From Clostridia bacterium (GTDB lineage: Bacteria; Bacillota; Clostridia; Christensenellales; SZUA-584), in assembly GCA_018648645.1 (NCBI GenBank), contig JABGQS010000023.1:1-37211 (forward strand): a stretch of 37,211 nucleotides of DNA, written 5' to 3'. Numbering within the stretch: the first letter of the stretch is position 1; each line of letters starts with the position of its first letter. Of the stretch, positions 3,950 through 29,746 are shown piece by piece. Position numbers and translations under genes: made by a program. Below the pieces are notes generated by a model. The model had not been told where the DNA came from, did no database searches, and was given only the letters and a program-made list of their open reading frames with translations.

Positions 3950-3982
3950 TTTGCCGCCTTCTATCTGAACGTTATTTTAAAG

Positions 3983-8886: not shown

Positions 8887-9520
8887 ATTCGCATACCTCA
8901 AAACTCTTAAACCTTATCACATTATCAAATTGCTCGCGGCTTAAAACCGCCAGCGTATCAATCAGCTTAAAGTCGTTCTCATACTCGTTTATATCAGGAT
9001 CGGGACAATGAATCCTGTTCAAAAACGCAATCTTCCACTTCCCATACTCAGGCATCAAATCGCTCAGAGGTTGCGACCTGCTCTCGCTCCCAACCAAAAT
9101 CTTTTCGGTCGGCTCATCGCTCTCCCGCGTGCTGGTGTCCACAACGATATGCACGCCTTCGGTCACCAAACTCTTTCGCAAATCGCATTTTAACTCCACC
9201 AGCTTTTGCGCAAACGCCTCAAACGGCATATCTGCCGACACTACCAACACCAACGCCTTGTTGCCGTGCACCGCTCTCATCGTCGCCACATGCCGCATCA
9301 CTATTTTATGAAACTGCGGATCGCTTTTATAATGCGCATATAGCGCCTTGCCAAACGCTGACCAGTCAGCAACACTTCGAGCCTCTTCAAACTCAAAGTC
9401 AGATAGCTCAATCGCTTGCAGCACGCTGCCGACAAACCTCGAAGCGTCCGGTTTTAAAAGTATATAGCCTCTCAAAATTACGCTGCCCCCCTTTTCGCTG
9501 TTTATATATCTGCGTCGCAC
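8885..9520 (-). CDS. Uncharacterised protein at the end of the acs-cbi operon
   Basis: A soluble-looking protein of 211 residues from the GTG at 9520, or about 196 from a TTG at 9475 that follows a GGGGGG stretch; the start is uncertain. The GTG start overlaps the end of cbiO by 19 bases, which suggests coupling. I do not recognise the family. It is mixed alpha/beta by composition, without signal peptide or membrane segments. A central part (HVATMRAVHGNKALVLVVSA followed by an AFAQKLVELK helix) faintly recalls the catalytic subunit of molybdopterin synthase, but this is too weak to call. The C-terminus has NRIHCPDPD and ends in VCE. Being last in an operon with CODH/ACS and a cobalt transporter, it may serve metal or corrinoid handling; that is inference from position only. 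Confidence 0.7.
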   Translation of the reverse strand: MRRRYINSEKGGSVILRGYILLKPDASRFVGSVLQAIELSDFEFEEARSVADWSAFGKALYAHYKSDPQFHKIVMRHVATMRAVHGNKALVLVVSADMPFEAFAQKLVELKCDLRKSLVTEGVHIVVDTSTRESDEPTEKILVGSESRSQPLSDLMPEYGKWKIAFLNRIHCPDPDINEYENDFKLIDTLAVLSREQFDNVIRFKSFEVCE

Positions 9521-10257
9521 TTAGGACATCCTTGCATAGAGAGCGGCAGCTCAAGCCCGCACTCACCCAGCAGCTTCTCATCGCTCAAAATATCCTTCGC
9601 CGCTCCGTCCGCCGCCACAAGCCCATCTTTTAACACAATTATGCGCTCGCACGTATCATACACCATATCCAAGTCGTGGCTGGTGATAATCCGCGTGTGC
9701 TTAAACTCCTTAATCAGCTTGATAAACCTTCTGCGAGATTGCGGGTCAAGCGAGCTCGTCGGCTCATCCATCACCAATATATCCGGCTGCATCGAGAGCA
9801 CCGTCGCGATGCTTGCCGCCCGCTTTTCGCCTTCGGACAAGTGATACGGCGCTCTGTCACCAAGGTGCTCAATCCCCACCTGCTCCAGCGCATGCGCTAC
9901 TCGCTGTGCTACCTCGTCTTCGCCGATTCCGCTGTTTCTGGGTCCAAACGCCACGTCGTCATATACGCTCGTCATAAACAGTTGGTTGTTCGGATCCTGA
10001 AACACCATCCCAATTCTCTGCCTAATCGACGGTATCGTCTTTTTCGTCATTTTCACTTCGCCGATCACCACTTCGCCGCTCTGCGGTGTCAATATCCCCA
10101 TAAGCAGCAACAACAGCGTAGACTTGCCCGCACCATTCGCGCCGATAATACCGACCGACTCGCCGTGCAATATCCGAAACGAAATGTCGCTGACCGCTTC
10201 TTTGCCGCCCGGATAACTGTATTTCAAATTCTTCACTTCCGTAATGTGATGACTCAT
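9502..10257 (-). CDS. cbiO: Cobalt ECF transporter ATPase CbiO
   Basis: A 251-residue ABC ATPase that energises the CbiMQO cobalt importer on the cytoplasmic side of the membrane. Walker A is GANGAGKST (39-47), the Q-loop is VFQDPNNQLF, the signature is LSEGEKRAASIA (LSGGQ variant typical of this group), Walker B is ILVMDEPTSSLDP and the switch His is in ITSHDLD. The C-terminus ends with a CPKC pair (CPKCDADI). Its ATG shares one base with the cbiQ stop (TAATG), so translation is coupled. Nickel is a possible alternative substrate, but the corrinoid context favours cobalt. Confidence 0.93.
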   Translation of the reverse strand: MSHHITEVKNLKYSYPGGKEAVSDISFRILHGESVGIIGANGAGKSTLLLLLMGILTPQSGEVVIGEVKMTKKTIPSIRQRIGMVFQDPNNQLFMTSVYDDVAFGPRNSGIGEDEVAQRVAHALEQVGIEHLGDRAPYHLSEGEKRAASIATVLSMQPDILVMDEPTSSLDPQSRRRFIKLIKEFKHTRIITSHDLDMVYDTCERIIVLKDGLVAADGAAKDILSDEKLLGECGLELPLSMQGCPKCDADI

Positions 10258-11063
10258 TATAAAACCCCCGCAATCGCGTTGCCAAGCAGTGTCGGCAAAT
10301 CGAAAATTCGCGCCAGCACGAAAAACGCTATCCAGAAAATCAAGTACGCGATATCTTTAAACTTCATCCTTATATTTGCGCCCGGATGATAATTACCGTC
10401 AAACCCGCGCATCAACATGGCTGCGTATATGTTTTGCGAGCGCTCATACGTGCGCAGTATAATCTGCCCGATCAGCGGACCCCAAGCCGTTTTGTGAATG
10501 CCCTTTTTGCCAAACGAGCGCAGCTTATACGCCCGCACCGTCCGCGCAATCTCCTCGCCAATTACGCTGATATATCGGTACGTCAGCAAAATTTGCAGCA
10601 CAATCAACTTTGGAATTCGTATCAATCGCAGCGCGTACGCCAGCCTGTCAATGCCCATTGTAGACATCATCAGCAGTGCAGAGATTACAATCAATCCGTA
10701 TTTTAATACCAACGAAGCGAAATTGAACCACCCGCCGTAATACACACTGCTGCCAAAGTACACAATACTCCTATCGAATATAACAGCAAACAATCCGATG
10801 CCAAGTATCAGCGGCAGCACAATCAGCGCGCGCTTAAATATCGGTTTTACCGGCGTTTTCGATACCGCAAAAATAATCACGGGATATAGCACAAACGGCA
10901 AAACAGGCACAATTGCGTACCTGCCGAAAGACGATACAAGCCCGCTGTATGCGATTGTAACCAAAAACAGCATCAGCGGATGAATATGATGAACGGCGGA
11001 ATCCCCACGCGCCAAGTCGTCCATAAGCCGTAGCTCTCTAATCGAATTTTCTATACTTGCCAT
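10257..11063 (-). CDS. cbiQ: Cobalt ECF transporter transmembrane protein CbiQ
   Basis: A 268-residue membrane protein of the EcfT/CbiQ family. After an N-terminal amphipathic stretch it has hydrophobic segments around 30-75, 80-98, 115-137 and 242-262. The two Arg-containing coupling motifs that contact the ATPase are visible as ARTVRAYKLRSFG and YERSQNIYAAMLMRGF. It links the metal-binding component CbiM to CbiO. No clear Shine-Dalgarno precedes its ATG, so it may depend on translation from cbiM, which ends 33 bases upstream. Confidence 0.93.
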   Translation of the reverse strand: MASIENSIRELRLMDDLARGDSAVHHIHPLMLFLVTIAYSGLVSSFGRYAIVPVLPFVLYPVIIFAVSKTPVKPIFKRALIVLPLILGIGLFAVIFDRSIVYFGSSVYYGGWFNFASLVLKYGLIVISALLMMSTMGIDRLAYALRLIRIPKLIVLQILLTYRYISVIGEEIARTVRAYKLRSFGKKGIHKTAWGPLIGQIILRTYERSQNIYAAMLMRGFDGNYHPGANIRMKFKDIAYLIFWIAFFVLARIFDLPTLLGNAIAGVL

Positions 11064-11096: not shown

Positions 11097-12113
11097 CTAT
11101 TGCACCCCGGCTGCCTTTTTCCTCTTAAACAGCCATATTGCAAATCCAATCAACGCTGCAAACGCAAGCGTCAGCCCCGCGCCGACAATCCCGGCAATGC
11201 TCGTCTGTCCGTTCTCCGAAATCTGTGCGCCTGCGCCCTCGCGCAAAGCGTAATCGGGCAATATCGCCGTTTCCTGCTGTATCTTAATAAGCGCATCATC
11301 CGCCTGCTCTACAATCTCTACGCCCGAGTTTTCAGCCGCCCTCGCAACCGACCACTCAAGCCCGTCCGGGTTCGCCGATGCAAACCATGCGCCAACTCCG
11401 CCGATTAAAACGGTGCAAATCAACAGCCCCGCAACCAATTTTTTGTTGGATGTTTTCTGCTTTGGTAACCCTACCGCACCTTCCATAAGCTCGGGTTTCG
11501 CTTTATATATAAACACAAGCACCATCGCGGTCACAAGCCCTTCAATCGCCCCAATCGCCAAATGTATCGGCTGCATAAGCGCCGCAAAAACGCCAAACGA
11601 GAGTAGCGTTTTTCCGGAAATCACAGTCTCCAGCACCACGCTGAACGCCCCAAGCTGCAACGCCACCATAGATGCGATTACTGCGCCAACAACAATGCGA
11701 CGATTCGAATATCCTTTTTTCACAATTGGTTTAAAAATAAGCGGATACGCGACAAAACACGCAAAAAATCCTAGATTGAATATATTGGCTCCAAGCGCCA
11801 GCAGCCCCCCATCGGCAAAAAACAGCGCCTGAATACTGAGTATCGAGATCATCGTTAAAAAACCCGCATTTCTCCCAAGCAAAACCGCCAAAAGTATGCC
11901 GCCGACAATATGTCCGCTGCTGCCCGTTCCGGGTATCGCAAAGTTGACCATCTGCATCGCAAAAACCAGCGCGCCCATCACGCCCATCAACGGTATTTTG
12001 TCTTTATCAAGCTCAATGTTGATTTTCTTGCTCGCATACGCTGTCACCCCGGCAGTGGCGGCCCACATGGTTCCGCCGACAACCGGCGACAATAAAGCAT
12101 CTCCAACGTGCAT
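11097..12113 (-). CDS. cbiM: Cobalt ECF transporter substrate component CbiM fused to a PDGLE (CbiN-like) domain
   Basis: A 338-residue membrane protein. The N-terminal part (about 1-205) is CbiM/NikM: it begins MHVGDALLSP, where the amino terminus and His2 form the metal site together with His68 in GSSGHIVGG. The C-terminal part has one membrane segment (226-246), the PDGLE motif (249-253), an extracytoplasmic stretch and a last membrane segment (about 304-330), which matches the CbiN/NikN-like PDGLE domain normally made as a separate protein. The fusion combines metal capture and gating. A GGAGAG site precedes the ATG. It lies 33 bases after acsV and begins the cbiMQO block, so cobalt import is expressed with the corrinoid enzymes. 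Confidence 0.92.
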   Translation of the reverse strand: MHVGDALLSPVVGGTMWAATAGVTAYASKKINIELDKDKIPLMGVMGALVFAMQMVNFAIPGTGSSGHIVGGILLAVLLGRNAGFLTMISILSIQALFFADGGLLALGANIFNLGFFACFVAYPLIFKPIVKKGYSNRRIVVGAVIASMVALQLGAFSVVLETVISGKTLLSFGVFAALMQPIHLAIGAIEGLVTAMVLVFIYKAKPELMEGAVGLPKQKTSNKKLVAGLLICTVLIGGVGAWFASANPDGLEWSVARAAENSGVEIVEQADDALIKIQQETAILPDYALREGAGAQISENGQTSIAGIVGAGLTLAFAALIGFAIWLFKRKKAAGVQ

Positions 12114-12146: not shown

Positions 12147-14030
12147 CTATTTGAACAAATCCGAATCGGTGTGCGGTATAAACAACGCCGCCGTGTACTG
12201 ATCCATATACGCGTGCTCTACGCTGAGGTCAAGATACGTAATGTTTTGCTCAATCTGCTTTTGCTTTTCTATGTGCTTTTTGCTCACCAGCGTCATGTAC
12301 GCCCCGATAATCGACGAGTTGCCGATAAACGAGAACTTACTCGGCGCCAAGTTCGGCAACAGCCCAATCGCAGACGATTTGCTTATATCGATATATCTGC
12401 CAAATCCGCCCGCAATATAGATCTTTTCCAAATCCTCAAAGTCCATATCAATCTTTTGCAGCATTACCCTGCAAGCAGAATAAATCGCTGCCTTTGCGCG
12501 CACCAGGTTATCAATATCCGTCTCATTAATAAATATCGGCTTGCCGTCCTCCGTTTCTTCCCCCGGTGCTATAATGTACCGCGAGTTTCTGTTGTCCGGC
12601 TCAACCGCGACGCTCTTACGCTGTCTGTTCAGCTTTCCGCCCGCGTCCAGCCATCCCGTGTTAAACAATTCGGCAATCAATGCAATCATTCCGCTGCCAC
12701 AAATGCCAAGCGGCTTTATCTCGCCGATGACGCCATACTCGCAAACGCCCGTATCAGGGTCAACGCTCACACGCTCAATAGCGCCTTGCGACGCCCTCAT
12801 GCCGTGCTCAATACCGCCGCCTTCAAAAGCAGGCCCCGCGCTGCACGCACACCCGATAAGAAAATCCTCGTTGCCGAGTATCAGCTCGCCGTTTGTTCCG
12901 ATGTCGATGAACAAGCTAATCTGCTCGTTTTGGTTGCTAAGGCTCGTGCACAGCAGCCCCGATGTGATGTCTCCGCCCATATAGCTGCCGACGGACGGCG
13001 CCATGTAAACAGCCGTGTTCACGTTTATATTCAATCCAACGTCGCTCGCCTTATAAAACGGTATATCATAAACCGCAGGCGTGTACGGGTCCAGCCGTAT
13101 GTTTTCGGGGTCAATGCCCAGCAGCAAATGCATCATCGTTGTGTTTCCGGCTATCGAAGCGTTATAAATATCATTCGCGTTAATCGCGCTTCGCTCCGCC
13201 ATCTCATTTATCAGCTCGTTAATGGTTCCGAGCACCTTTTGTCTTAACTCTTCTCTTTGCGGCAATTTCTTTGCATAGTTAATGCGGCTGATGACGTCCA
13301 GCCCGCAGCTAATCTGCGCGTTATAATCCGTCTTCGCCGCCAATATATTGCCCTCCGGCATATAAATCAACCGCACAGCCACCGACGTAGTGCCGATGTC
13401 CACCGCCACGCCATAGCTGCCAAAAATGGTATCGCCCGCTTCAACATCGACGATTTTAACCACACCATTGTCAATATAATAGCTGACAGTCACTTTGCCG
13501 TCTTCCTCGCGCAACTCGTTTGGCATGGTCTGCAGCACATTGACGGGCAGCTCAAAATACTGCGCGTCAAGCGCACTCAGCACAGCCGTTTTCAATCTGT
13601 CATAGTCCGACAGTCCGTCGCCGACCTCAGCTTCACTGACCACAATTTCCTTCTTCTTGACCAGCGGTTCAATGTCCTCGTGCTTTGGCATCAACGCTCG
13701 GTCTATAAGCAGCATGTCCTCGCTCGCGTGAGAGAACTTGCCCTCCTCCTCGCCAAACTCAGAGAACACGTGCACAACAACATCCTCATCGCCCAGGTTC
13801 GATTTGCAGATCAATACATACCCTTCATCCACCAAATCCTGCGTCAGAATTCCGCTGTTGTCAAAATCCACTTTGCCCTGCTCAATTTTCACAAGACACT
13901 TACCACACGTTCCCTGACCGCCGCAAGGCGCGTCAACGGAAACATCGTGCTCTTTTGCGGATGCAAGCAATGGAGAGCCGCTAGGCATCTCCATTGTTAT
14001 TCCGCTCGGTTTAAAAGTTACTTTTGGCAT
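12147..14030 (-). CDS. acsV: Reductive activator of the corrinoid iron-sulfur protein (AcsV/RACo)
   Basis: A 627-residue protein with an N-terminal [2Fe-2S] ferredoxin domain (about 1-95) and a C-terminal ASKHA-type ATPase domain (DUF4445 family). The cluster ligands are Cys36, Cys42 and Cys45 in APCGGQGTCGKC plus Cys75 in LICKS. Nucleotide-fold motifs are VAVDIGTTSVAVRL, SIAGNTTMMHLLLG, FIDIGTNGELILG and YIAGGFGRYIDI. RACo proteins use ATP to drive one-electron reduction of inactive Co(II) in the corrinoid iron-sulfur protein back to Co(I). Its place directly after acsC supports that target, rather than a methylotrophic corrinoid protein as for RamA-like relatives. The spacing to acsC is 26 bases. 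Confidence 0.94.
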   Translation of the reverse strand: MPKVTFKPSGITMEMPSGSPLLASAKEHDVSVDAPCGGQGTCGKCLVKIEQGKVDFDNSGILTQDLVDEGYVLICKSNLGDEDVVVHVFSEFGEEEGKFSHASEDMLLIDRALMPKHEDIEPLVKKKEIVVSEAEVGDGLSDYDRLKTAVLSALDAQYFELPVNVLQTMPNELREEDGKVTVSYYIDNGVVKIVDVEAGDTIFGSYGVAVDIGTTSVAVRLIYMPEGNILAAKTDYNAQISCGLDVISRINYAKKLPQREELRQKVLGTINELINEMAERSAINANDIYNASIAGNTTMMHLLLGIDPENIRLDPYTPAVYDIPFYKASDVGLNINVNTAVYMAPSVGSYMGGDITSGLLCTSLSNQNEQISLFIDIGTNGELILGNEDFLIGCACSAGPAFEGGGIEHGMRASQGAIERVSVDPDTGVCEYGVIGEIKPLGICGSGMIALIAELFNTGWLDAGGKLNRQRKSVAVEPDNRNSRYIIAPGEETEDGKPIFINETDIDNLVRAKAAIYSACRVMLQKIDMDFEDLEKIYIAGGFGRYIDISKSSAIGLLPNLAPSKFSFIGNSSIIGAYMTLVSKKHIEKQKQIEQNITYLDLSVEHAYMDQYTAALFIPHTDSDLFK

Positions 14031-14056: not shown

Positions 14057-15385
14057 CTATCGGTTAAACGCCTTTATATAGCTCTCGATATCTGCCGCTT
14101 CCTGTGGAGCAACTGCAACTTTCCAGCCCGGCAGCGCTTCTTCAAGCTCGCCGCTTATCTGCGCTACATATCCCGGTATCGAAATTGTCCTTGTGTCTAC
14201 CATAGACTCTAAATCGGCTTCTTTGATAAACTTTGCTATGCTGGTGCCGGAGAACTTTCCTGCCGACCAAGCCGTCAATACACTAAAGCCTTCGCATTCG
14301 GGCACGACCAGCCAAGCACTGATTCCGCTGTTTTCAATCTCGCCCGATACGATAAAGTATGTGAGTGAGAAGTTCGTCGTAACAAAAACCATAGAGTTTC
14401 TGTCCGGCTCGCCAATTGGATAAATTTTTGGCTCCATTTGAATCGGCTTCTGCGGATCTGTATAGATGTTAAGACGCAGCGTCATCAAGTTCACAAGCTG
14501 CGCAGCATCAAACTTTGGTAGCACACATACTCCGCCAAACTTTTCAATTTCGTTGATAGCCATCACAGTGTCCGTTAGCTCATCGCCCGTGTCGACAAAC
14601 TTTAGCGTAGCGTACCCAAGCTCCTTAACGTTGTCTTTAATCGCCGCAATTCGCGCAATCGAGTTCAATTGGAACGTCGCTGCCAAAGAGTCTGCTTCAA
14701 ACTGCATCACCATGTTGTTAAACCCGTCCGCCTTCAGCTTCCGGGTTATCGCAGTAATTTCGTCCAGCTCGCCTGCTATCGATAATATCATCGAATGCTC
14801 TTTTGCACAAGCAAGCAGCTCGTCAACATTGTCCTTGTTTACTCCGGCAATAACGCTGTTTGTACCGCTCACCGCTGCTGCCGCTTCCTTAATCGCCTTG
14901 GTGTCATCAGACCTCAAAATCAAAGGCAGCTTCGTAATCTCAAACGCTTTTTTCGCAAGCGCCGCAAATTTCGCCGCGTCGCCGCTTTTCTGCGTAATAG
15001 CCACCGCGTTCAGTATCAATATCTCACCCACGCGCTCCAGCTGATAATCCTTGATTTTGTTCAGCGTTTCCTGCGCGTCGCCCGCATCGTCGTCAATGTT
15101 GATAGCAAGCATCGTATCGTTGATAAACGTCTTCTCGTGCCTGTACAGCACCGTCTCTCCGCCGATTTTTGTGTTGATGTCGCTGCCGAGTGTCAGCTGC
15201 TTCACAGGCGGCTCATTGTCCGCCCCCAGCACCGCAATCGCTTCCTCAGAAGCATACGGGCACTCAGAAAGCTCCGCCTTTTTTGCCGCCAACTTCATCG
15301 CAAACGCCAGGCAAGTATTCGCACCGCATTCCTTACAGTTCGTTTTAGGAAGCAGTTTTTGTATTTGTAATCCGTTTAAAGCCAT
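14057..15385 (-). CDS. acsC: Corrinoid iron-sulfur protein large subunit AcsC
   Basis: A 442-residue protein, the usual length of AcsC (about 445). The N-terminal [4Fe-4S] domain has Cys17, Cys20, Cys25 and Cys42 (NCKECGANTC...ECPY), followed by a TIM-barrel-like region and a C-terminal corrinoid-binding domain. With the AcsD subunit it carries the methyl group on cobalt to the A-cluster of acetyl-CoA synthase in the Wood-Ljungdahl pathway. The ATG follows a strong AGGAGG site. It is 20 bases after the acsB-acsD fusion gene, so the two subunits of the heterodimer are encoded next to each other even though one is fused to the synthase. Confidence 0.96.
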   Translation of the reverse strand: MALNGLQIQKLLPKTNCKECGANTCLAFAMKLAAKKAELSECPYASEEAIAVLGADNEPPVKQLTLGSDINTKIGGETVLYRHEKTFINDTMLAINIDDDAGDAQETLNKIKDYQLERVGEILILNAVAITQKSGDAAKFAALAKKAFEITKLPLILRSDDTKAIKEAAAAVSGTNSVIAGVNKDNVDELLACAKEHSMILSIAGELDEITAITRKLKADGFNNMVMQFEADSLAATFQLNSIARIAAIKDNVKELGYATLKFVDTGDELTDTVMAINEIEKFGGVCVLPKFDAAQLVNLMTLRLNIYTDPQKPIQMEPKIYPIGEPDRNSMVFVTTNFSLTYFIVSGEIENSGISAWLVVPECEGFSVLTAWSAGKFSGTSIAKFIKEADLESMVDTRTISIPGYVAQISGELEEALPGWKVAVAPQEAADIESYIKAFNR

Positions 15386-15405: not shown

Positions 15406-18400
15406 TTATTTGCCCGCGCCGTCAAGCAGGTCGTTAATCGTCTTTTTGGTCGCCTTTACAGCTTCAGGGTGATACATAATCATGATGTCCGCACCCGCCT
15501 GCAATAGGCTGATCGCTGTCGTCATCTCCCAAGTAATCGCGCGCTTGTTCAGCTCACCCCACATCGGGAAATCCTCCTCAGGCGCCTTGTATTCTTTAAT
15601 CTTAATGCACTCCATACCCGGCGACACAATCATCGGCGCACAAAGCATCTTGTCGCCGTTAAGTCCCGTCAATCTAATACGCTCCATGACAGAGTACGAA
15701 TACTCAATGCCATATCCAATCGCGCCCGTCATCGGGTCCATGATAATCTTCTCTTTCTTAAAGTCCATGTTGGTCAACAGAATGTTTATCTGCTTGCCAA
15801 TGTTGACATCAATCGGAGACTGCGCTACCAGCGTATGTCCATACGCCATCGCTGCGCCTGCTATCGTTCTGTAGTTGTCCTGCTCTACCCAGTTAAACAG
15901 AAGGTTTTCGCCTTCGCAGCTCTGCGCAATCGCTTTAAACACTTCGTTGTTCTTGTCAAAGCTGTTGTGCCCGGTGATAATCAGCGGTACTTCTACAGCT
16001 TCAAGAACGGCTTTCACAGTTGCCACCGCGTCCTGCGGTGTTCTGTTTCCGCGCTCAGGATGCGTTCCGTCCAGCCTTACGCTAATCAAATCCGCGCCAT
16101 ACTTGTCAACGCACTCTTTCGCCATCGCTGCCGGGTTGTTAATCAAATCGCCGTAAACGTCTCTCAGCAATTTCGGATACTTCTCGCTGACCACATCATA
16201 CACTTCCATCGCCACGAGCGGCTTGTTCGGCATTTTGCCTTCCCACAAATGGAACGGCATGCATGTCGCGCCGCCTACTTTATACGTGATTCCGCGTGTG
16301 CCGCCCTGCTCCTTGGTGTTACCAAGCTGCACTTCCCAAATCTCGTTTTCCGCTTTTTCTTTGCGTATCGCGACAGACTTAATCTCGCTGATTATCTGCG
16401 CCGCAGATTTGCCCGGTGCTTCTTGTATATCGGCTACAGGCGCCCCTGCTGCAACTCCTGCCGCAGGCATAATCGACGCACCGAGAAACTGCTGAGATAA
16501 CACATTGATAATGCTCTCCGCCACTTCCTTGGTCACGCTCGCTCTTACTTCCTGCGTAATCTCTGCACGAATCGCTTCCACATCAGCCGCTGTTGCAACA
16601 GCTGCGGTTTCCACGACTTCTACTTCAACTTCCTCAGCTTCTTCTACAGCTACCTCTGCCGTAGCTGTGCTTTCCTGCTCAACGTAGTCGCTCATATCGT
16701 CCATCTCAAGCGCAGGATGCTTAACTTCCTCCATGCGCGCTCTCACTTCATCCGCTGTTGTTGCGTTCGTTTCGTCGCTTATCAAATCGAATAAATCAGG
16801 CGCTTCCGCTTCGTTGAACCTAAGCGTCAAGTCGCTCTTCAACATTTCCTTCAATTCCTTCGGCATCCATACCAGCCGCTTAAATCCGCCTTCTGATGCA
16901 AGGAACTTTCTCGATGTCAAGAACACTTTACCAACACCGATGAATCCCGGTGTCTGTGCTCCGCCGCCCACGCTTCCGGCAAGGCTGCTGAACGTCATGC
17001 CAATCGGTGTTTCGCCTTCAAACTCACGGTTGACAACCATAACGCCGTTGCACTCGGGCACGTACGCCACAATCGCTTCAAAGCAGCCGCAACTCGTCAT
17101 CGGTCTGTCCATGATAGAATACGCGCTAAACGCTTCTATTGCCTTATGGGTGTTTGTGTATACGTACTCGTTAACACCCTCCCAAACGCCCTTTTGTGGA
17201 TCCAAACATTCGCCTTTAATTACAGGCTGGTTAGGACCGGTTTCGTCGATTTCATACGCCGCTTTTCCGTCAAGCCAGTTATATGCACCGCAAAGCCCCA
17301 GTCTTTCCGGAGTAATTACGCAAACATGATCAGGTGCAAACGACTGACATAGCAGGCAAGAGTAGAACGTATCAACAGATTCATCCGTCATTGCTTCAAG
17401 ACGTCTGTTTCTCTCGTCATAAACTTTTAAAGCAACCTTTAATCTATCCTCTACTTCTTTTTCATCTGTAACTATAGTTATTTTAATTTTATCCACTATC
17501 GCAGGATAATCAGACAGCAATCTGGCGTGGATAATCTCTCCGTAATGCTTCAATCGAAGGCCCTTTGCAAACCCATCTTTAGAAACACGCGTCCAAACGA
17601 TATCGCGCTGCCCCATGTGCCATAATCCCTCTGCACCGTTCAGCAAATGATGTATTTGACGCTCTAGAATCGGCTCAAAGTCAGACTGCATCTTGCGCCC
17701 GGCAACCTCTACCCAAATAGCCAGCGGCAGTGCCGTGCCCTCTTCTACTTCGTCGATGTCTTTGCCGATCACGATAATCTCGCCGTCGTTTATGTCTTCG
17801 GGCTCAACGCTCGTAACAAACTCAAACGCCGTAGTCTTGTTTCCGCCAAACTCCACATGCGTCGCTTCTTTCCTGATTCTCTCGCCTTCAAACGCCGCGC
17901 CGTATGGCACAGGTACAGGTACGTCCACAATCTTGATTTTGCAACCGCGCACTTCAAGCGCCTTCTCGACCATTTGGTCGTGCGGCACGTTGCTGACAAC
18001 GTGCTCATATGTACACACGCCCGTCGGCAATATTTCCGGAATGTCCGTGTCCGCAATTACAGGGAAGCCGTAGTTAATCGCTCCCGCCGCCGCCGCATAT
18101 TTGTCCGGCGTAACTTCGCCAAGCGCCAACACAAATGCGAATATACGGTTCTTGTTATACTTGAGGTTTCCTTTAAAGTCGCCCGGTGCAACGCCGCCGA
18201 AAGAGAGCGCCGCTCTGTTCGCAAACCCAAGCGCATAAATCAAAGCAGAAACGTCAGCCCCGAAAGGAACAAGCCGCGTATCCCAGCCCAGCTGCACACC
18301 TTCTTCGGCCAGCTGCTCGGCAAACTGCTTGCCGTTTGTGCTGCCTCCCATAAACACGTACAAGTTCTTCTGCTGAAGCTCTTTAGCAATTTTAACCGCT

Positions 18401-18867
18401 GTCGCGTTGTCGGGTGCCGCGCCTGTAATGGCTGCAAAACCCGGCGCCGTGCCGTCAACAAACTCGATACCGCGCTCACGCATAATGACGTCGCTGGCCG
18501 CGCCAAGCCATATTCCGTCCACGGGGCTAGGGCCAATGATATACTTGCACGCTTCAATTACCTCGCATGCAAACAGCGCAGCAACACCCGCGTCCAATGT
18601 GTTTCCAAGGTAGGGAAGCCACACGTTGTCATCCGGTCGGTTCGGAAGCAGCTCCTTAGAATAATCTAATATCCCTTTTAGGTCAGCGAGCGTTTCCATT
18701 CTCTTTCCGGTAAACGAATATATTACCGGGAGCGAATACGTAGTGCTGGGAAACTCTACTTTAAAGTCCTCGCCTTTTTCCTTTATAGTCTCGGCCAGTT
18801 TGGTCTCTGCTTTAACCAGCCATTCTACCGCGCCGTCAATGGCGCTGGCACAAATTAATTTAGACAT
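15406..18867 (-). CDS. acsB-acsD: Fused acetyl-CoA synthase (AcsB) and corrinoid protein small subunit (AcsD)
   Basis: One continuous frame of 1153 residues holds two proteins that are normally separate. Residues 1-725 are a complete acetyl-CoA synthase: A-cluster ligands Cys504, Cys507, Cys516, Cys526 (FYSCLLCQSFAPDHVC..GLCG) and the nickel-site Cys593-Gly-Cys595 (TSCGCFEA), each exactly two residues below the numbering I recall for the Moorella enzyme. Residues 726-830 form a linker: a Glu/Val/Ala-rich stretch, a probable helix (761-795) and an Ala/Pro/Val segment. Residues 832-1153 are AcsD, with TKEQGGTRG, VRLDGTHPE, IIMDPMTGAIGYGIEYS and a complete C-terminus. The ATG at 18867 lies inside the end of cooS (8-base overlap) after AGGAGG; a longer frame from 18927 has no support. 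The product should make acetyl-CoA from CO, CoA and the corrinoid-bound methyl group. Confidence 0.95.
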   Translation of the reverse strand: MSKLICASAIDGAVEWLVKAETKLAETIKEKGEDFKVEFPSTTYSLPVIYSFTGKRMETLADLKGILDYSKELLPNRPDDNVWLPYLGNTLDAGVAALFACEVIEACKYIIGPSPVDGIWLGAASDVIMRERGIEFVDGTAPGFAAITGAAPDNATAVKIAKELQQKNLYVFMGGSTNGKQFAEQLAEEGVQLGWDTRLVPFGADVSALIYALGFANRAALSFGGVAPGDFKGNLKYNKNRIFAFVLALGEVTPDKYAAAAGAINYGFPVIADTDIPEILPTGVCTYEHVVSNVPHDQMVEKALEVRGCKIKIVDVPVPVPYGAAFEGERIRKEATHVEFGGNKTTAFEFVTSVEPEDINDGEIIVIGKDIDEVEEGTALPLAIWVEVAGRKMQSDFEPILERQIHHLLNGAEGLWHMGQRDIVWTRVSKDGFAKGLRLKHYGEIIHARLLSDYPAIVDKIKITIVTDEKEVEDRLKVALKVYDERNRRLEAMTDESVDTFYSCLLCQSFAPDHVCVITPERLGLCGAYNWLDGKAAYEIDETGPNQPVIKGECLDPQKGVWEGVNEYVYTNTHKAIEAFSAYSIMDRPMTSCGCFEAIVAYVPECNGVMVVNREFEGETPIGMTFSSLAGSVGGGAQTPGFIGVGKVFLTSRKFLASEGGFKRLVWMPKELKEMLKSDLTLRFNEAEAPDLFDLISDETNATTADEVRARMEEVKHPALEMDDMSDYVEQESTATAEVAVEEAEEVEVEVVETAAVATAADVEAIRAEITQEVRASVTKEVAESIINVLSQQFLGASIMPAAGVAAGAPVADIQEAPGKSAAQIISEIKSVAIRKEKAENEIWEVQLGNTKEQGGTRGITYKVGGATCMPFHLWEGKMPNKPLVAMEVYDVVSEKYPKLLRDVYGDLINNPAAMAKECVDKYGADLISVRLDGTHPERGNRTPQDAVATVKAVLEAVEVPLIITGHNSFDKNNEVFKAIAQSCEGENLLFNWVEQDNYRTIAGAAMAYGHTLVAQSPIDVNIGKQINILLTNMDFKKEKIIMDPMTGAIGYGIEYSYSVMERIRLTGLNGDKMLCAPMIVSPGMECIKIKEYKAPEEDFPMWGELNKRAITWEMTTAISLLQAGADIMIMYHPEAVKATKKTINDLLDGAGK
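16425..16692 (-). other. Linker region of the AcsB-AcsD fusion
   Basis: This is the stretch coding for residues 726-815 between the two enzyme domains. It encodes an acidic Glu/Val/Ala run (about 730-760), a heptad-like helix with regularly spaced Ile/Val/Leu (about 761-795) and a flexible PAAGVAAGAPVAD segment. The frame is open throughout, without a stop, a ribosome binding site or a start codon in a good context for separate AcsD synthesis. Base composition is like the flanks. Confidence 0.8.
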
Positions 18868-20815
18868 CCAATTCCCTCCTGTCCTGCATATCGTAAAGCT
18901 TTCTCTCCGCTTTCTTGTTGATGCCAAGCGCTTCTCTTGCTTCTCCGATAATGTTCATAATCAGTTCAACTGCTTTGAGTGGGTCTTCTTCCACATGGAA
19001 GCTTCCGCCAAACAGGTCTTTTGTATCTTCCATCAAGAACTTCTCAACATTCGGTGAACCGGAAGTATAGAACCCGTTACCGAGTACAACATCAACACCC
19101 GATGCCACGAAGTAACAACCGATTGCAATCGCTTTTTCGCTCATCCACTCCGGCGCAACGCCCACTGCCGGCAATCCGGCTAGGTCGTCTCCAAGTCCAC
19201 CTTCCGCCACAACCTCAGTTGCCGCTTCAAGTATTCTCGAGTTGTCAACACAGCTACCCATATGTAGTATCGGTGGGATACCAACCGTTTCGCAAACTTC
19301 GCGCAGTCCGTCACCCGCCTGCTCCACGCCGATTTCAGGCTGCATCATTCCCGCTTTACCCGAAGCAATTGCCGCACAGCCGGTCTTTAGCACAAGCACG
19401 TTGCGCTTGATGAGTTCCTTAGTCAATACATGCGTGTACTCTTCCAGTTTACAGTTTGGATTGCTGCAACCAACGATTCCGACAAGCCCATAAATTCGAT
19501 TTGCGATAATCGCGTCATTTAATGGTCTGAACGATCCTCTAAACGTGCCGCCCAACATATACTTAATCGCGTCCACGCTAAAGCCCGCGACCATTTGCGC
19601 CGACTGCTTTGGAATCTCTATTTTTGATTTGTCGCGCTTACCAAAATTGTCAATCGCTCGCTTAATCATTTCTTTTGCCGACTCAAGCGGCAAGTCTTCG
19701 TTAAACTCAATATGCGACGCGCCAACAGTCTTTGCGATCTCGGCAGTCGATATGATTTCTGTATGATAGCTTTCAGCCACTTTCGGCAAGCTCGGCATAC
19801 AACACTGCACATCGATAACCATCATCTCAACAGCGCCGGTGATAATCGCCAGCTCCTGCTGCAAAAAGTTACCCGCAACAGGCACGCCGTGCCGCATCAA
19901 TATCTCGTTCGCCGTACAGCAAAGTCCCGCGAGTGTGATTCCGTCTGCGCCTGCTTTCTTGGCATATGCTTTTATTTCCGGGGCTTGCACTGCAACTGCC
20001 AGCATCTCTGACAACGCAGGTTCGTGCCCGTGCACAATAATATTTACAGTTTCCTCTTTTAAAACGCCAAGGTTCGCTTCGGTCTTAATCGGCTTTGGAG
20101 CGCCAAACATGATGTCAGACACAATAGAAGCGCATCGGCTTCCGCCCCATCCGTCGCAAAGCGATGTTCTAAACGCGTGCATCAGCAAGCTCTTATAATC
20201 GTGGTCAACGCCCATCGTTGTTCTGTGCATCGCTTCAACCACCGTGCGGTCGATGCCGTGCGGCTTAAGATCGTGATTCTCCCAAACACCCTGCCTTTTC
20301 ACAGGTGCCAATGTCAGCGTCTTTAAATACTCTTCCTGATGCGAAAACTCTTGCAGCATCATGTTAGCCAGATCAAGCGCAACATCTTCTTTAGTGCGCC
20401 CCTCTTCTTCAATACCATAAAGATTAGCGTTATACCGCAGCGTCTTTTCATCTTTAATCGTATATCCGTTTCCTTCGCCCTGCGCCACCTTCTTTAACCG
20501 CAGCACCAAATGACGCCCATGGTCACTATGCGCAGCCGTTCCGCCGACAACTTCGCGCAAATAGTTTCTTGCAACAATCGTGTCCTCATCCGCTCCGCAA
20601 ACGCCGAGCGGCGACTTCTTTGTTATCCTGCAAGGTCCCATATGGCATATTTTGCAGCAAACGCCGCTCGTGCCAAACTTACAATGATGTTTTTGTGTCT
20701 CATACCGGTCAAAACACGTATCTACGGACTCTTCCGTTGCCTTTGCCAGCATTTCCTGAGAGGCTTGGTCTCCTACCTTCTTATAATCCTGAACTTCTGT
20801 ACTCACTGTGTTCAC
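18860..20815 (-). CDS. cooS: Carbon monoxide dehydrogenase catalytic subunit (CooS/AcsA)
   Basis: A 651-residue nickel CODH, typical length. Cys45 and Cys53 match the intersubunit D-cluster; Cys54, Cys57, Cys62 and Cys73 match the B-cluster (GVCCKICHMGPC...GVCG). The nickel C-cluster region shows MRHGVPVAG, DVQCCMPSLP, VGIVGCSNPNC, KTGCAAIASGKAGMM and HMGSCVDNSRI. It interconverts CO2 and CO and feeds CO through the tunnel to the ACS encoded by the next gene, whose start it overlaps by 8 bases. The start is a GTG at 20815; a second in-frame GTG three codons later has a slightly better (GGTG) site, so the exact N-terminus is uncertain. Neighbouring cooC genes point to nickel insertion. Confidence 0.96.
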   Translation of the reverse strand: MNTVSTEVQDYKKVGDQASQEMLAKATEESVDTCFDRYETQKHHCKFGTSGVCCKICHMGPCRITKKSPLGVCGADEDTIVARNYLREVVGGTAAHSDHGRHLVLRLKKVAQGEGNGYTIKDEKTLRYNANLYGIEEEGRTKEDVALDLANMMLQEFSHQEEYLKTLTLAPVKRQGVWENHDLKPHGIDRTVVEAMHRTTMGVDHDYKSLLMHAFRTSLCDGWGGSRCASIVSDIMFGAPKPIKTEANLGVLKEETVNIIVHGHEPALSEMLAVAVQAPEIKAYAKKAGADGITLAGLCCTANEILMRHGVPVAGNFLQQELAIITGAVEMMVIDVQCCMPSLPKVAESYHTEIISTAEIAKTVGASHIEFNEDLPLESAKEMIKRAIDNFGKRDKSKIEIPKQSAQMVAGFSVDAIKYMLGGTFRGSFRPLNDAIIANRIYGLVGIVGCSNPNCKLEEYTHVLTKELIKRNVLVLKTGCAAIASGKAGMMQPEIGVEQAGDGLREVCETVGIPPILHMGSCVDNSRILEAATEVVAEGGLGDDLAGLPAVGVAPEWMSEKAIAIGCYFVASGVDVVLGNGFYTSGSPNVEKFLMEDTKDLFGGSFHVEEDPLKAVELIMNIIGEAREALGINKKAERKLYDMQDRRELDV

Positions 20816-20837: not shown

Positions 20838-21593
20838 CTATATATTACTTACTAAATTATTAATCTTCTTTATCACTGCGTTGTCGTCACCTAATGCTTC
20901 AAAACTTTCGCCTGTGTCCGCAAGGTTCGCCAGCTCAAGGTCGTCCGGCAATCCGATTACTTCGTCCGCGTGCGTATACTCTTTCACTTCCGCCGCTTTC
21001 TCGGGCAGCGTATCCGTGCGCATACGGTTCACCACAATCAGCAGCTTGTCGTACTTTATCTCCATCTCGTCGGCCAAAGTGTACAGACGCTTTAGTGTTT
21101 CAAGTCCCGAGTTGCTTTGGTCAGACACCAATATCAGCAAATTCACCTTCTGCACTATCCTGCGCGACAAGTTCTCAAGACCCGCTTCGTTGTCCAGCAC
21201 CACATAAGGATACTGGTCCGACAGCTTTCCGATTACCGACTTTAGCACGTTGTTTGCATAGCAATAGCATCCTGCGCCTTCCGGCCGCCCCATCGCTATC
21301 AAGTCGAACCCTTGCGATTCCACAAGACTCTCCTCAATTTTCATCTGCAAGAGGTCTTGCTTGCTTATCCCCGCGCCCATACCTTTGCTTGCTTCTACCT
21401 TCGCTTCTTCTCTTACTCGCCCAACCGTTTTTTCTACCTTTACGCCAAGCGCCGCGTCAAGACAGCTGTTCGGGTCTGCGTCGATGGCAAGCACAGGCTT
21501 TTTGCCCGCCACCACCATCTGTTTAATTATGAGACTGCTAACCGTTGTTTTACCAACTCCGCCTTTGCCTGTTACCGCTATCAAATAGCTCAT
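20838..21593 (-). CDS. cooC: CooC-type nickel-insertion ATPase (copy adjacent to cooS)
   Basis: A 251-residue P-loop ATPase of the MinD/CooC group. The deviant Walker A is GKGGVGKTT (9-17) and a CxC metal motif is GAGCYCYAN (Cys109, Cys111), close to Cys112/Cys114 of Rhodospirillum CooC. Such proteins dimerise, bind nickel at the CxC pairs and hydrolyse ATP to mature the C-cluster of CODH or the A-cluster of ACS. It lies 22 bases before cooS and overlaps the other cooC copy by 4 bases (ATGA). Which cluster each copy serves cannot be read from the sequence. Confidence 0.93.
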   Translation of the reverse strand: MSYLIAVTGKGGVGKTTVSSLIIKQMVVAGKKPVLAIDADPNSCLDAALGVKVEKTVGRVREEAKVEASKGMGAGISKQDLLQMKIEESLVESQGFDLIAMGRPEGAGCYCYANNVLKSVIGKLSDQYPYVVLDNEAGLENLSRRIVQKVNLLILVSDQSNSGLETLKRLYTLADEMEIKYDKLLIVVNRMRTDTLPEKAAEVKEYTHADEVIGLPDDLELANLADTGESFEALGDDNAVIKKINNLVSNI

Positions 21594-22372
21594 ATAATCT
21601 GTCCTTCTATTTTCTGAAACATGTCTTCAAATATCTCTTTTAGCTCGTCGTCCAAAACGTCCAGCACGCTGACGCCTTCTCTGTCCGCGTTTCTTATCGT
21701 TGCAGAATACGGTATAAACGCCACCAGCTCTATGCCTTGCGGCAGCTTGTCTTTTATGTACTGCTCGTCCTCATCGCTGCCCACTTTGTTGGCAACCGCC
21801 ACCAGCTTTTTGACGCCGATTTCGTTCGCCATGCGCTGCACAGTAAACGCGCAATCGATCGAGCGCTTTCCGGGTTCAACGACCACGACCATCACGTCCA
21901 CGCCTCTGCTCGTCGCGCGCCCAAGATGCTCGATGCCCGCTTCCATATCCATAATCAGCGTTTCGTCTTTAAACATAACGAGGTCGGTCACGAGCGATCT
22001 GATAAACGTGCTTTCAGGGCACGCACACCCGCCGCCGCCCGCTGTCACAGCGCCCAGCACCAGCAAGTCGATGTCGCCGTGCTTATACGAATACTTCTCC
22101 GCAACATCGCTCACTTCGGGGTTCAGCTTAAACACCTTGCCGTACGTATCCACCTTAGAGCCTGTTCTCTCTTCAATCAGCTCAATCTGCTTAGATATCG
22201 GCACAATCTTTTCTTGGTTCTCGCTGCTTATACCAAGAGCGGACGCCAGATTTGCATCCGGATCCGCGTCAAGTGCCAAAACTTTTCCGCCTTTTTTTGC
22301 TATGGTCAGCGCCAGGGCAGCCGCGATGGTAGATTTACCAACGCCGCCTTTGCCCGATACCGCAATCTTCAT
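21590..22372 (-). CDS. cooC: CooC-type nickel-insertion ATPase (second copy)
   Basis: A 260-residue paralogue of the preceding ATPase, with Walker A GKGGVGKST (7-15) and the CxC motif GGGGCACPE (Cys116, Cys118). The Gly-rich lead-in and the C-A-C pair differ from the C-Y-C of the other copy. Other matching motifs are LDADPDANLASALG and IMDMEAGIEHLGR. It presumably matures a nickel cluster; given two cluster types in the operon, division of labour (C-cluster against A-cluster, as proposed for CooC and AcsF) is likely but unproven. A GGAG site precedes the ATG. Its last 4 bases overlap the start of the second cooC. Confidence 0.92.
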   Translation of the reverse strand: MKIAVSGKGGVGKSTIAAALALTIAKKGGKVLALDADPDANLASALGISSENQEKIVPISKQIELIEERTGSKVDTYGKVFKLNPEVSDVAEKYSYKHGDIDLLVLGAVTAGGGGCACPESTFIRSLVTDLVMFKDETLIMDMEAGIEHLGRATSRGVDVMVVVVEPGKRSIDCAFTVQRMANEIGVKKLVAVANKVGSDEDEQYIKDKLPQGIELVAFIPYSATIRNADREGVSVLDVLDDELKEIFEDMFQKIEGQII

Positions 22373-22396: not shown

Positions 22397-23464
22397 CTAG
22401 AAACCGTACTTTTCTTTCATTCTTGCCGACAGCTTTCCTGTCAGCTCAAACACCTTTTCAGCGTCCTCGGGTGACATAGACCCTGTTCCGCAAGATGGTG
22501 TTATGAGTGCCTGCTCCATAATAAGCTGCTTGTCGATGCCCTGCGCAGCAAGCCCGTCCATCACGTTCTCAAGCTGCTCTTCCAGCGTTTCAACGCTCTG
22601 CTCACGGATAATTTCAGATGTAGGCACAACGCCCCACGCCAGCATTCCGCCGCGCTCAAGGTGCGCCTTGACAGAGTCCGCATACATCGCTATCGTGTGT
22701 CCATACTCAAACGCGTCAAAGTTAACAATGTCAACGCCCGCGTCAATCAATATGCTCCACTCCGTGTTTCCGCAGCAGTGGATTCCCGCAAGCGCGCCGT
22801 CCGCATGCACAGCGTCGATTACTTCTGCCAGCATAGCCACAACGTCCTCGCGTTTTACCGAAACGTATGTAGAGCTGCCAAACGCAGATAGTATCGGCTC
22901 ATCGATAAAGCAAATCACGTCATCGGCAAACGGTTTAAACCTTTGAATCTGCCAGCGGCACTTCATAGCCATCGCTTTTGTGATCAAATCTCTAAACTCG
23001 TCGTTATAATATATCGCTCTTTTATTCTCGTCCACAATCGTCAACGCAAAGCTGCATGGTCCTGTTGTCTGCACTTTCACGCACGGCAGCTTGCCAGCGT
23101 TTGCTTTCAGCACTTTTTCCATCGCGTAAAAGCCTTTGCTGAACTCTTCGGATATCGCCATAACCGAGCAGTCGCCCGTGCCGTCGTCCGGGTCCATAGC
23201 CACCATATAGTTTTCATAGAATGTCGCGAAATCATCAAAGTAGTCGCTCTCTGTGTCAAAGAACATTCTGCCCTTTTCATAATCGCGCACAACTGCCGGC
23301 AGCCCTTCGCTGTACTGCACTTCCATCTGCTCGTTCATGCCCAGCCTTGGGAGCTGGGGCCATATCGGGCAATCTTTAATAGTTGTCGTAGATACTTTCA
23401 CTGCATAGTCAGGATCGGTAAACGGCATACTTCCGATGGCCGTCCCTAAAAATTTTGGTTTCAT
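22397..23464 (-). CDS. Core-MetE-like methionine synthase
   Basis: A 355-residue protein equivalent to the C-terminal catalytic half of cobalamin-independent methionine synthase, without the N-terminal half. The zinc ligands of MetE are all in place with the right spacing: His229 and Cys231 (IHCCGN), Glu253 (DAFEYG, 22 residues on) and Cys325 (PSCGTG); IDEP (187-190) is also conserved. Short proteins of this kind from Wood-Ljungdahl anaerobes (described as core-MetE) take the methyl group from a corrinoid, including the corrinoid iron-sulfur protein, rather than from a folate. Its place in the acs operon supports that reaction. The ATG at 23464 is chosen because GGAGGAGA lies 7 bases before it; the ATG five codons earlier overlaps that site. 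A UroD-type methyltransferase is the alternative reading. Confidence 0.85.
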   Translation of the reverse strand: MKPKFLGTAIGSMPFTDPDYAVKVSTTTIKDCPIWPQLPRLGMNEQMEVQYSEGLPAVVRDYEKGRMFFDTESDYFDDFATFYENYMVAMDPDDGTGDCSVMAISEEFSKGFYAMEKVLKANAGKLPCVKVQTTGPCSFALTIVDENKRAIYYNDEFRDLITKAMAMKCRWQIQRFKPFADDVICFIDEPILSAFGSSTYVSVKREDVVAMLAEVIDAVHADGALAGIHCCGNTEWSILIDAGVDIVNFDAFEYGHTIAMYADSVKAHLERGGMLAWGVVPTSEIIREQSVETLEEQLENVMDGLAAQGIDKQLIMEQALITPSCGTGSMSPEDAEKVFELTGKLSARMKEKYGF

Positions 23465-23491
23465 AATGCTCTCCTCCATATATAAATTCGT

Positions 23492-24388
23492 TTATTTATT
23501 GTTGTGTTTTTCTACCACTTCTTTGATAGCGGCAATATGCGCAGGTGTTGTGCCGCAGCATCCGCCGAGGATATTCGCGCCCGCATCAATCATCTGCTCA
23601 ACAAACGCTGCCATCATCTCGGGTGTTTCGGGGAATACGTCAACGCCGTCTATGTTTTGCGGCAGTCCCGCATTCGCGTGCAGCAGTATCGGTGTGTCCG
23701 GCGCCGCTTCGCGCATCTGCGCAACGATAACGAGCATACGCTCCATACCGTTTCCGCAGTTTGTTCCGATAATGTCCGCGCCCGCTTCGAGAGCCGCTGT
23801 TGCAGCTTCTGCCGGCGCAACGCCCATCATGCTTCTGTAGTCGCCGCGTACAGTTTTTTCAAATGTAAACGTGCAGATAACTTCAAGGTCGGTGTTCTCT
23901 TTTGCCGCTTTCACAGCCAGCGTCGCTTCCTCGATATCGCTCATCGTTTCCACGCACACCGCGTCCGCGCCGCCGGCTTCAAGCGCGATTGCCTGCTCCT
24001 TAAACGCATCATACATTTCCTGCTCGGTCACTTCCTGTGTAATCAGCATTTTGCCTGTCGGTCCAATCGACGCGATAACCCAGTTGTCGTCGCCCGCCGC
24101 ATTCTTAGAACACCGCGCAGCCGCTTCGTTAATCTCGGCCACCCTGTCCGCCAAACCAAAATGCTCAAACTTAAAGCTCGTGCCGCCAAAGCTGTTCGCT
24201 TCAACCATGTCCGCGCCCGCATCGATATAGCTCTTTGCAATCGCGGTTACGTCGTCCGGGCGCTCCACGCACCAAAGCTCTGGGCACTCGCCCGGCTCCA
24301 GACCCTTCTTCTGCAAGAAAGTTCCCCATGCGCCGTCGCTAACCAAAATCTTTCCACTCTTTACAACATCAACAATTTTCTTTTGCAT
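23492..24388 (-). CDS. Homocysteine S-methyltransferase domain protein
   Basis: A 298-residue protein matching the homocysteine-binding barrel of MetH, betaine-homocysteine methyltransferase and MmuM. Zinc ligands are Cys211 (GTNCGNG) and Cys277-Cys278 (GGCCGTTPAHI), and the barrel starts VSDGAWGTFLQ. No cobalamin or folate domain is attached, so the methyl donor must come from another protein or a small molecule. Being the first gene of the CODH/ACS operon, 27 bases ahead of the core-MetE-like gene, it may accept methyl groups from a corrinoid protein; S-methylmethionine or betaine remain possible donors. The ATG at 24388 has an AGAGGT site; an ATG seven codons upstream has none. Confidence 0.88.
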   Translation of the reverse strand: MQKKIVDVVKSGKILVSDGAWGTFLQKKGLEPGECPELWCVERPDDVTAIAKSYIDAGADMVEANSFGGTSFKFEHFGLADRVAEINEAAARCSKNAAGDDNWVIASIGPTGKMLITQEVTEQEMYDAFKEQAIALEAGGADAVCVETMSDIEEATLAVKAAKENTDLEVICTFTFEKTVRGDYRSMMGVAPAEAATAALEAGADIIGTNCGNGMERMLVIVAQMREAAPDTPILLHANAGLPQNIDGVDVFPETPEMMAAFVEQMIDAGANILGGCCGTTPAHIAAIKEVVEKHNNK

Positions 24389-24922
24389 ACCTTGTAACCT
24401 CTTTCTCATTCATAATATTTATTCTTAATAGATTTTCTAAATTATAAACAACAGCTTGACAATAAATTCACATAAAGCCGCGCATATATACTCGGTTTTT
24501 CCGGATCCTACGGTGTATTAAAACAGTATTATTCGTATAATACGCCAATTTAATATACACCTGTCCATAGTGTCCGCTATAGTATATAACTTTTATAAAT
24601 TAAATACTAAAGAAATCTTGTCATTTTTATAAAAATCGTTGCCTTTTTTTATAAACCCCCGCATTCCTGCGCGCTCCCTCTATCAGACGCTCAGCTTTTT
24701 ATAATACCGCTGCTTTTATCCGCTTTTAATGCCGTTTTCTTACTGTTTTCGCGCGGTTTTCTCACCACCTAATAAGAAAATAATGCGGCACACATTTAAA
24801 AAACCGCATCCCGCATAGTATAACATCTTTTTTATAGTATATTCAAGCCGAAAGGGTCAAAATCAGCTTCGCCGACCGCCAACAATCCTATCGATTGCGT
24901 AACTCTCTAGCTCTGCACCGCC
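24389..24922 (-). promoter_or_regulatory. Long AT-rich leader/promoter region upstream of the CODH/ACS operon
   Basis: This 534-base gap has no credible gene. It is much richer in A and T than the coding DNA. A perfect TATAAT on the minus strand (24441-24446) lies about 53 bases before the first gene but lacks a good -35 box. Near the upstream side, ATGCGG/CCGCAT arms (24804-24809 and 24783-24788) with a T-rich tail may be the terminator of the 4-hydroxybutyrate operon. A tandem motif, ACTATAGCGGACA then ACTATGGACA (minus strand, about 24562-24584), and a nested palindrome (listed separately) suggest regulator binding. I found no cobalamin or SAM riboswitch blocks. Confidence 0.5.
24513..24560. 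repeat. Nested inverted repeat upstream of the CODH/ACS operon
   Basis: An inner perfect inverted repeat, GTATTAT-TCGT-ATAATAC (24526-24543), is flanked by outer arms GTGTATTAAA (24513-24522) and TTTAATATACAC (24549-24560), which pair except for a two-base insertion. It is about 125 bases upstream of the first gene. It could be an operator for a dimeric or tetrameric regulator. Confidence 0.6.
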
Positions 24923-26653: not shown

Positions 26654-26699
26654 CTGTCACCTTCCCCACTTTTTCCGTATTAATATCATCTGTTATTTA

Positions 26700-28004: not shown

Positions 28005-28005
28005 C

Positions 28006-29723: not shown

Positions 29724-29746
29724 ATTTTTTTCTCCCATATTTTTTT
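29717..29746 (-). repeat. Two 15-base direct repeats spanning the abfD start
   Basis: The minus-strand unit AAAAAAATATGGGAG occurs twice head to tail (29732-29746, then 29717-29731). Each copy contains an ATG and a GGGAG. The GGGAG of the first copy is the ribosome binding site for the ATG in the second, and the repeat length keeps both ATGs in frame. Confidence 0.9.

Follow-up and report, generated by a model that had tools for sequence, protein, structure and literature searches.

Can an acetyl-CoA synthase (ACS) carry one half of its methyl donor on the same polypeptide, and what would such a tether do? This question is raised by a gene on the minus strand of contig JABGQS010000023.1, from the Clostridia bacterium assembly GCA_018648645.1; the whole stretch of 37,211 nucleotides that was analysed is called the window here, and all coordinates of the locus are window positions. 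The gene encodes AcsB, which is the ACS, and AcsD, the small subunit of the corrinoid iron-sulfur protein (CoFeSP), in one chain. AcsB and AcsD are separate proteins in the carbon monoxide dehydrogenase (CODH)/ACS and CoFeSP systems of Moorella, Carboxydothermus and Clostridium autoethanogenum, which the window system otherwise resembles in the A1-A2-A3 domains, the A-cluster ligands, the AcsD fold and the partners AcsC, activator and CODH. The initial annotation of the locus knew of no description of such a fusion, and we found none in the open literature either, CODH surveys included, although subscription papers could hold one.

ACS and AcsD are encoded in a single frame

The fusion gene spans 15406..18867, stop codon included, and 1153 stop-free codons are read from 18867 to 15406. 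The 8 bp from its ATG at 18867 onwards are shared with the end of cooS. The ATG stands just downstream of a strong Shine-Dalgarno sequence, GGAGGG; an alternative upstream TTG start would add 20 residues. The ACS part (residues 1-725; 16693..18867) comprises domains A1-A2-A3 (PF18537, PF03598 and PF19436) and gave a Foldseek match to CODH/ACS structures. The ACS model NF040764 scored 1032 bits against a cut-off of 800, with residues 10-725 aligned to positions 1-704 of the 705 in the profile. All six cysteines of the A-cluster (C504, C507, C516, C526, C593 and C595; 17083..17358) were present and were invariant across 45 fused homologues. The A1 domain (PF18537 at residues 21-110) aligned to the A1-domain chain 6yua_A of C. 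autoethanogenum and is predicted to bind CODH. The AcsD part (residues 832-1153; 15409..16374) matched NF003376 over residues 832-1148 with 400.9 bits against a cut-off of 280, and has a TIM-barrel fold with a target-normalised TM-score of 0.92 to 4djd_D. The Pfam families CODH_A_N, CdhC, ACS_CODH_B_C and CdhD each exceeded their own cut-offs in the fusion. Profile matches and sequence thus agree with the initial annotation, which had read a complete AcsB with six A-cluster cysteines and a complete AcsD in one open frame.

AcsD is therefore not the separate polypeptide that pairs with AcsC elsewhere, while AcsC itself is a separate, adjacent protein. The acsC gene (14057..15385, minus strand) encodes the large CoFeSP subunit with its 4Fe-4S and corrinoid domains (NF003195, 478.8 bits; PF04060 and PF03599), and starts about 20 bp downstream of the fusion behind its own AGGAGG. 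The corrinoid is expected to sit on this separate AcsC rather than on the AcsD part of the fusion. The window genome (2.67 Mb, 95% complete, a draft assembly in 77 contigs) has a single ACS, and no second AcsD was found in it, PF03599 matching only AcsC, the fusion and one 364-aa frame. In this last frame (G000:C2:46169-46537, L086) the match to PF03599 is confined to the corrinoid-binding C-terminal part of the family, as in HgcA-like proteins, and frames of 343-469 aa resembling it occur in several fused genomes.

The connector contains a conserved helix

Between the two enzymes lies a connector of about 106 residues (726-831; 16375..16692, minus strand), in keeping with the linker of about 100 residues noted at first. 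It is, however, not a plain linker, since it holds a conserved and constrained helix. In its general plan across 45 sequences, a stretch of about 43 residues with much Ala, Pro and Glu leads to an amphipathic helix of about 35 residues (here about residues 760-796; 16480..16590, minus strand) whose end has the consensus TxEIVxDIIxTLSxKFLG, and an Ala- and Pro-rich stretch of about 23 residues closes the connector. Conservation was poor outside the helix, and the length ranged from 58 to 186 residues among fusions, with a median of about 118. In close pairs, the ratio of nonsynonymous to synonymous substitution rates (dN/dS) was mostly 0.1-0.25 for the connector, near 0-0.15 for the helix and 0.03-0.08 for ACS. 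These values argue that the connector is translated and under purifying selection, though more loosely than the enzyme. In the AlphaFold2 model, the predicted local distance difference test (pLDDT) score fell below 50 at residues 730-763 and 790-820, and a helix was modelled at 760-794 with a pLDDT of about 50.

The helix had no convincing relative in Pfam (best E 0.019) or in the PDB (best E 0.02); the best Pfam match, to the VASP tetramerisation family, was below the family cut-off and was not accepted as a homologue. An internal translation start that would yield free AcsD was likewise rejected, as a start led by a Shine-Dalgarno sequence ahead of AcsD was found in none of the 45 fusions. 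Nor does the connector descend from an older N-terminal extension of AcsD. The nearest unfused relative (G1190) has an ACS of 735 aa and an AcsD of 333 aa, both without extension, so that the connector is new sequence and not an old extension of either partner.

The fusion is widespread and probably arose once

The initial annotation had proposed that proteins with both domains be searched for and mapped on a genome tree. In a locus search of about 85,000 species genomes, from which the best 80 loci were taken, 70 were single-frame fusions over practically their full length; nearly all of the others were cut by contig ends, and the rest matched slightly short of full length. One fused locus (L075:5983-9500) has a single frame break inside the AcsD part, which is either a sequencing error or real. 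Frames of 1553-1776 aa in 13 genomes looked like a triple AcsB-AcsD-AcsC fusion, but direct reading revealed a stop codon between AcsD and AcsC. A plasmid-borne copy was also considered and dismissed, as no fusion was found in PLSDB.

By record titles, the fused loci came from at least 14 phyla, with the caution that binning of metagenome-assembled genomes (MAGs) may misplace single contigs: Bacillota, Actinomycetota, Lentisphaerota, Verrucomicrobiota, Spirochaetota, Synergistota, Fibrobacterota, KSB1, Acidobacteriota and Aminicenantes, Planctomycetota, Thermodesulfobacteriota, Ignavibacteriota, Raymondbacteria, SAR324 and others. Many of the fused genomes appear to be insect-gut or sediment MAGs. 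Several uncultured Treponema MAGs carry the fusion; for cultured termite treponemes, ACS and the two CoFeSP subunits are listed as separate genes (PMC3082573). Phylum surveys of ACS-bearing genomes were each centred on a fused genome, so the following fractions are not unbiased frequencies: 1 of 116 in the window's own phylum (the window itself), 8 of 22 in Spirochaetota (including two contig-cut cases with ACS and AcsD in one frame), and 1/128, 3/8 and 1/5 in the phyla of the Syntrophaceae, Lentisphaerae and Acidobacteria centres, respectively. ACS was absent from the four same-family genomes examined. Of the 45 fused genomes, 44 had no AcsD other than the fusion. A second, unfused CODH/ACS set, including a 458-aa AcsD-containing frame, occurred solely in G483 (contig C113, L187), whose bin of 9.6 Mb may be mixed.

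Fused ACS proteins from most phyla shared about 74-81% identity with the window ACS, and most unfused ones 51-58%. In a maximum-likelihood tree of 71 rows, the 39 fused ACS lay on one side of a single branch (SH-aLRT 99) with one change of state, and a FastTree of 159 rows agreed. These trees indicate that the fusion probably had one origin. Host phyla were mixed within the fused clade, which points to horizontal transfer as the probable route of its spread. The fusion is thus a widespread variant, probably of single origin, and not a local novelty. The unfused ACS of G1190 adjoins the fused clade; in that genome, acsB and acsD lie about 4 kb apart among the same neighbours as in fused loci (core-MetE-like, CooC, CooS, AcsC and AcsV). 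In another unfused operon, that of G1107, acsD directly follows acsB.

The operon encodes methyltransferases and the genome lacks AcsE

The neighbours of the fusion gene listed in this paragraph are all on the minus strand. Downstream of acsC lies an acsV/RACo-like gene for a corrinoid reductive activator (12147..14030; PF14574, PF17651 and PF17650), which scored 670 bits with NF040756, below the cut-off of 800. Upstream are cooS/acsA for the catalytic subunit of Ni-CODH (18860..20815; TIGR01702, 649 bits) and two genes for CooC-like maturation ATPases (20838..21593 and 21590..22372), both assigned by PF01656 and operon position. Further upstream are the genes for a core-MetE-like Zn methyltransferase (22397..23479), weakly matched by NF002119 (E 5e-8) and with the HxC...C site at H234, C236 and C330, and for a protein of the homocysteine S-methyltransferase family (23492..24409; PF02574, 236 bits) with conserved C218, C284 and C285. 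The Zn-ligand residues of both methyltransferases are conserved, the core-MetE-like site in 51 homologues. The order homocysteine methyltransferase, core-MetE-like protein, two CooC, CooS, ACS-AcsD, AcsC and AcsV was conserved in most loci with enough flank. The window operon adds cobalt uptake genes, namely those for the energy-coupling factor transporter component CbiM with a CbiN-like C-terminal part (11097..12113; PF01891 and PF13190), CbiQ (10257..11063; PF02361 and TIGR02454) and an ABC ATPase that by PF00005 and position is probably the transporter's CbiO (9502..10257). No Rfam riboswitch match was found within the window.

Methyl supply was examined by family searches in the 95% complete window genome. 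There was no match to PF00809, the family of AcsE, MetH and FolP, and hence neither AcsE nor MetH; MetF (PF02219) and canonical MetE (PF01717) were absent too. AcsE belongs to the usual bacterial CODH/ACS set (PMC12827605), but the AcsA-E set of the window genome lacks it, and it was not found in most of the fused genomes checked. MetF was also absent from genomes G458, G461, G465 and G466. PF00809 was checked in 12 other fused genomes, with individual scans of part of the matches. An AcsE-like methyltransferase above the model cut-off was found in G460 and G494, G498 had a frame with MetF-like and AcsE-like parts, and G478 had a weak relative; the classified matches in the remaining genomes were FolP or MetH. 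The G498 frame (L213:1258-3609, Planctomycetes GWF2_41_51) is at least 784 aa long and combines a part like methylenetetrahydrofolate reductase with the C-terminal domain of that part and a pterin-binding part like that of AcsE. It is possibly a MetF-AcsE fusion in a genome that also carries the AcsB-AcsD fusion. Such a fusion is not a general theme, as frames of about 805-820 aa proved to be ordinary MetH and G498 was the sole case.

Two proteins of the URO-D family are encoded near the operon at 1365-2399 and 3983-5008. This family includes corrinoid methyltransferases such as MtaA, and the two proteins might possibly provide an alternative methyl entry. Also near the operon, 25874-29738 encodes an HpaB-fold protein, a protein of the acetyl-CoA hydrolase/transferase family and an enoyl-CoA hydratase, which are reminiscent of a 4-hydroxybutyrate or crotonyl-CoA pathway.

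Possible selenocysteine-type ACS paralogues in Desulfobacterota

Four archaeal-type ACS paralogues of Desulfobacterota (L182 in G886, L183 in G772, L216 in G736 and L217 in G805) contained two in-frame TGA codons. When both are read as selenocysteine, the A-cluster motif TSCGCFE becomes TSUGUFE, and the second TGA is followed at a distance of about 25 bases by a conserved hairpin (CCCTCAGGTTGATGGG), placed as a bacterial selenocysteine insertion sequence would be. These features suggest that the A-cluster of an acetyl-CoA synthase in Desulfobacterota is ligated by selenocysteine; a brief search of the open literature found no mention of such an enzyme. Two TGA codons were also present at G879:C35:4080-4769, where a pattern search did not find a TSUGUFE-type motif.

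Discussion

We consider it probable that the gene encodes a working single-chain ACS-AcsD with a leashed CoFeSP, and that the complex of the window organism mainly cleaves acetyl-CoA to supply the methyl group of methionine. The fusion itself sets an ACS:AcsD stoichiometry of 1:1, as the initial annotation had deduced. Because acsC is conserved next to the fusion and there is no other AcsD, free AcsC would bind the fused AcsD and complete the CoFeSP, which would then stay tied to its own synthase through a long and flexible arm. In the fused chain this arm of about 106 residues leads from the C-terminal end of the mobile A3 domain into AcsD. Being slack, it would let A3 move back and forth from the CODH tunnel to the docked corrinoid domain while the carrier remains leashed. 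A weak diffusional encounter would thereby be replaced by a local one, at an effective concentration on the order of millimolar by a simple polymer estimate made by hand. The connector helix probably serves for docking or self-association; as it is missing from a few fusions, it would be of help without being essential. The initial annotation had held that every complex carries its own corrinoid protein; this depends on the pairing of AcsC with the fused AcsD, as the cobamide-carrying AcsC remains a separate protein.

That the methyl carrier is tethered at the A-cluster is a plausible idea, in line with published structural work on ACS and CoFeSP. In an AlphaFold3 model of the Carboxydothermus proteins, A3 meets the corrinoid domain of AcsC, A2 its N-domain and A1 meets AcsD, and the authors matched this model to an extended cryo-electron microscopy (cryo-EM) state and to the C. 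autoethanogenum complex (PMC12289521). The archaeal acetyl-CoA decarbonylase/synthase complex (Methanosarcina CdhC, CdhD and CdhE) likewise holds ACS and a corrinoid protein within one large complex, but non-covalently, without an A1 domain and with CdhD as a separate protein, the extension of which has no detected homology to the fusion connector. The E2 chains of 2-oxoacid dehydrogenases bear a mobile carrier on flexible Ala- and Pro-rich arms and have a small helical element for binding. The likeness is one of analogy only, with no sequence relation, E2 carrying an acyl group on lipoate and the fusion system a methyl group on cobalt.

As to the methyl group, the initial annotation expected the tether to alter how the carrier shuttles from one to another of its partners, the methyltransferase, the activator and the synthase; since AcsE is absent from the window genome, the methyl partner is probably a different one. 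In the window organism the complex would mainly cleave acetyl-CoA (or take methyl groups from another source), and methyl would leave the tethered CoFeSP for homocysteine via the Zn methyltransferases of the operon. Dehalococcoides mccartyi likewise has ACS and CoFeSP without AcsE and MetF, together with a Zn methyltransferase of the core-MetE type, and a route has been proposed there in which ACS cleaves acetyl-CoA and methyl passes from CoFeSP to core-MetE (PMC7005905). Its AcsB and AcsCD dimer are described as separate (PMC7005905), whereas the window operon encodes AcsB and AcsD as one chain and includes the MetE-like gene. The window genome shows the gene pattern of the Dehalococcoides route, lacking MetF, MetH and canonical MetE while encoding a core-MetE-like protein with the Zn site, though the E value makes this a weak assignment. 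By this analogy, methionine methyl from acetyl-CoA cleavage is our best guess for the window organism.

Several points weigh against this interpretation. Connector length varies about three-fold and the helix is missing in some members, those with the shortest connectors, so no precise geometry is required. The AlphaFold2 model of the fusion had a predicted template modelling score (pTM) of 0.40, and the relative placement of ACS and AcsD is therefore not predicted. For the MetE-like protein the model match is weak and Pfam gives none, a genome that is 95% complete may miss a gene, and, given the AcsE-like proteins of G460 and G494, a methionine role cannot be general for the clade.

There are other explanations. 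The most serious, though we doubt it, is that reductive acetyl-CoA synthesis is still the work of the window complex, and that its methyl comes from a different corrinoid methyltransferase system or from an AcsE encoded in the 5% that was not assembled. The complete set of CODH, ACS, CoFeSP, activator and cobalt uptake genes would suit it, as would the two URO-D family proteins (1365-5008) and the AcsE-like proteins in G460 and G494, yet AcsE, MetF, MetH and MetE are all missing from the window assembly, and MetF from four further genomes as well. It is unlikely that the tether is real but without a kinetic role, fixed once for co-expression or 1:1 dosage and then inherited and transferred with the operon. 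A single origin and a connector so variable in length and sequence outside the helix speak for this, but the fusion is kept in deeply diverged members of many phyla, a clean split was seen in no complete locus, and the helix is conserved and constrained.

Cleavage of a precursor in the connector, leaving ordinary AcsB and AcsD in the cell, is harder still to credit: the connector is long and predicted to be disordered, but no protease-site pattern was apparent in it, the helix being the sole conserved element, and no separate AcsD start was found. Joining of two genes by a frameshift, misassembly or chimeric contig, conceivable for a draft assembly, deserves practically no credence. The 70 of 80 independent loci that run in one frame through the junction come from assemblies of many projects, so the fusion is not an assembly or annotation artefact, and this explanation is refuted for the class. 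Returning to the leashed single-chain enzyme, a more far-reaching version, offered tentatively, is a horizontally spread CODH/ACS lineage with a leashed carrier, largely uncoupled from AcsE, acting as an acetyl-CoA decarbonylase that feeds methyl groups to methionine, with a higher-order complex assembled through the helix.

How methyl passes from CoFeSP to the A-cluster is hard to observe because the partners meet only briefly. In a cryo-EM study, the amounts of CoFeSP that sufficed to form the complex overcrowded the micrographs, and methyl cobinamide was substituted for CoFeSP (PMC12289521). A natural single-chain version makes this step testable both structurally and kinetically, and is a template for engineered one-carbon fixation. 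Gene surveys that count acsB and acsD separately may misread fused genomes. For the family as a whole, a single gene-fusion event found across at least 14 phyla would be a clean marker by which to trace how one of the oldest carbon pathways has been passed on horizontally.

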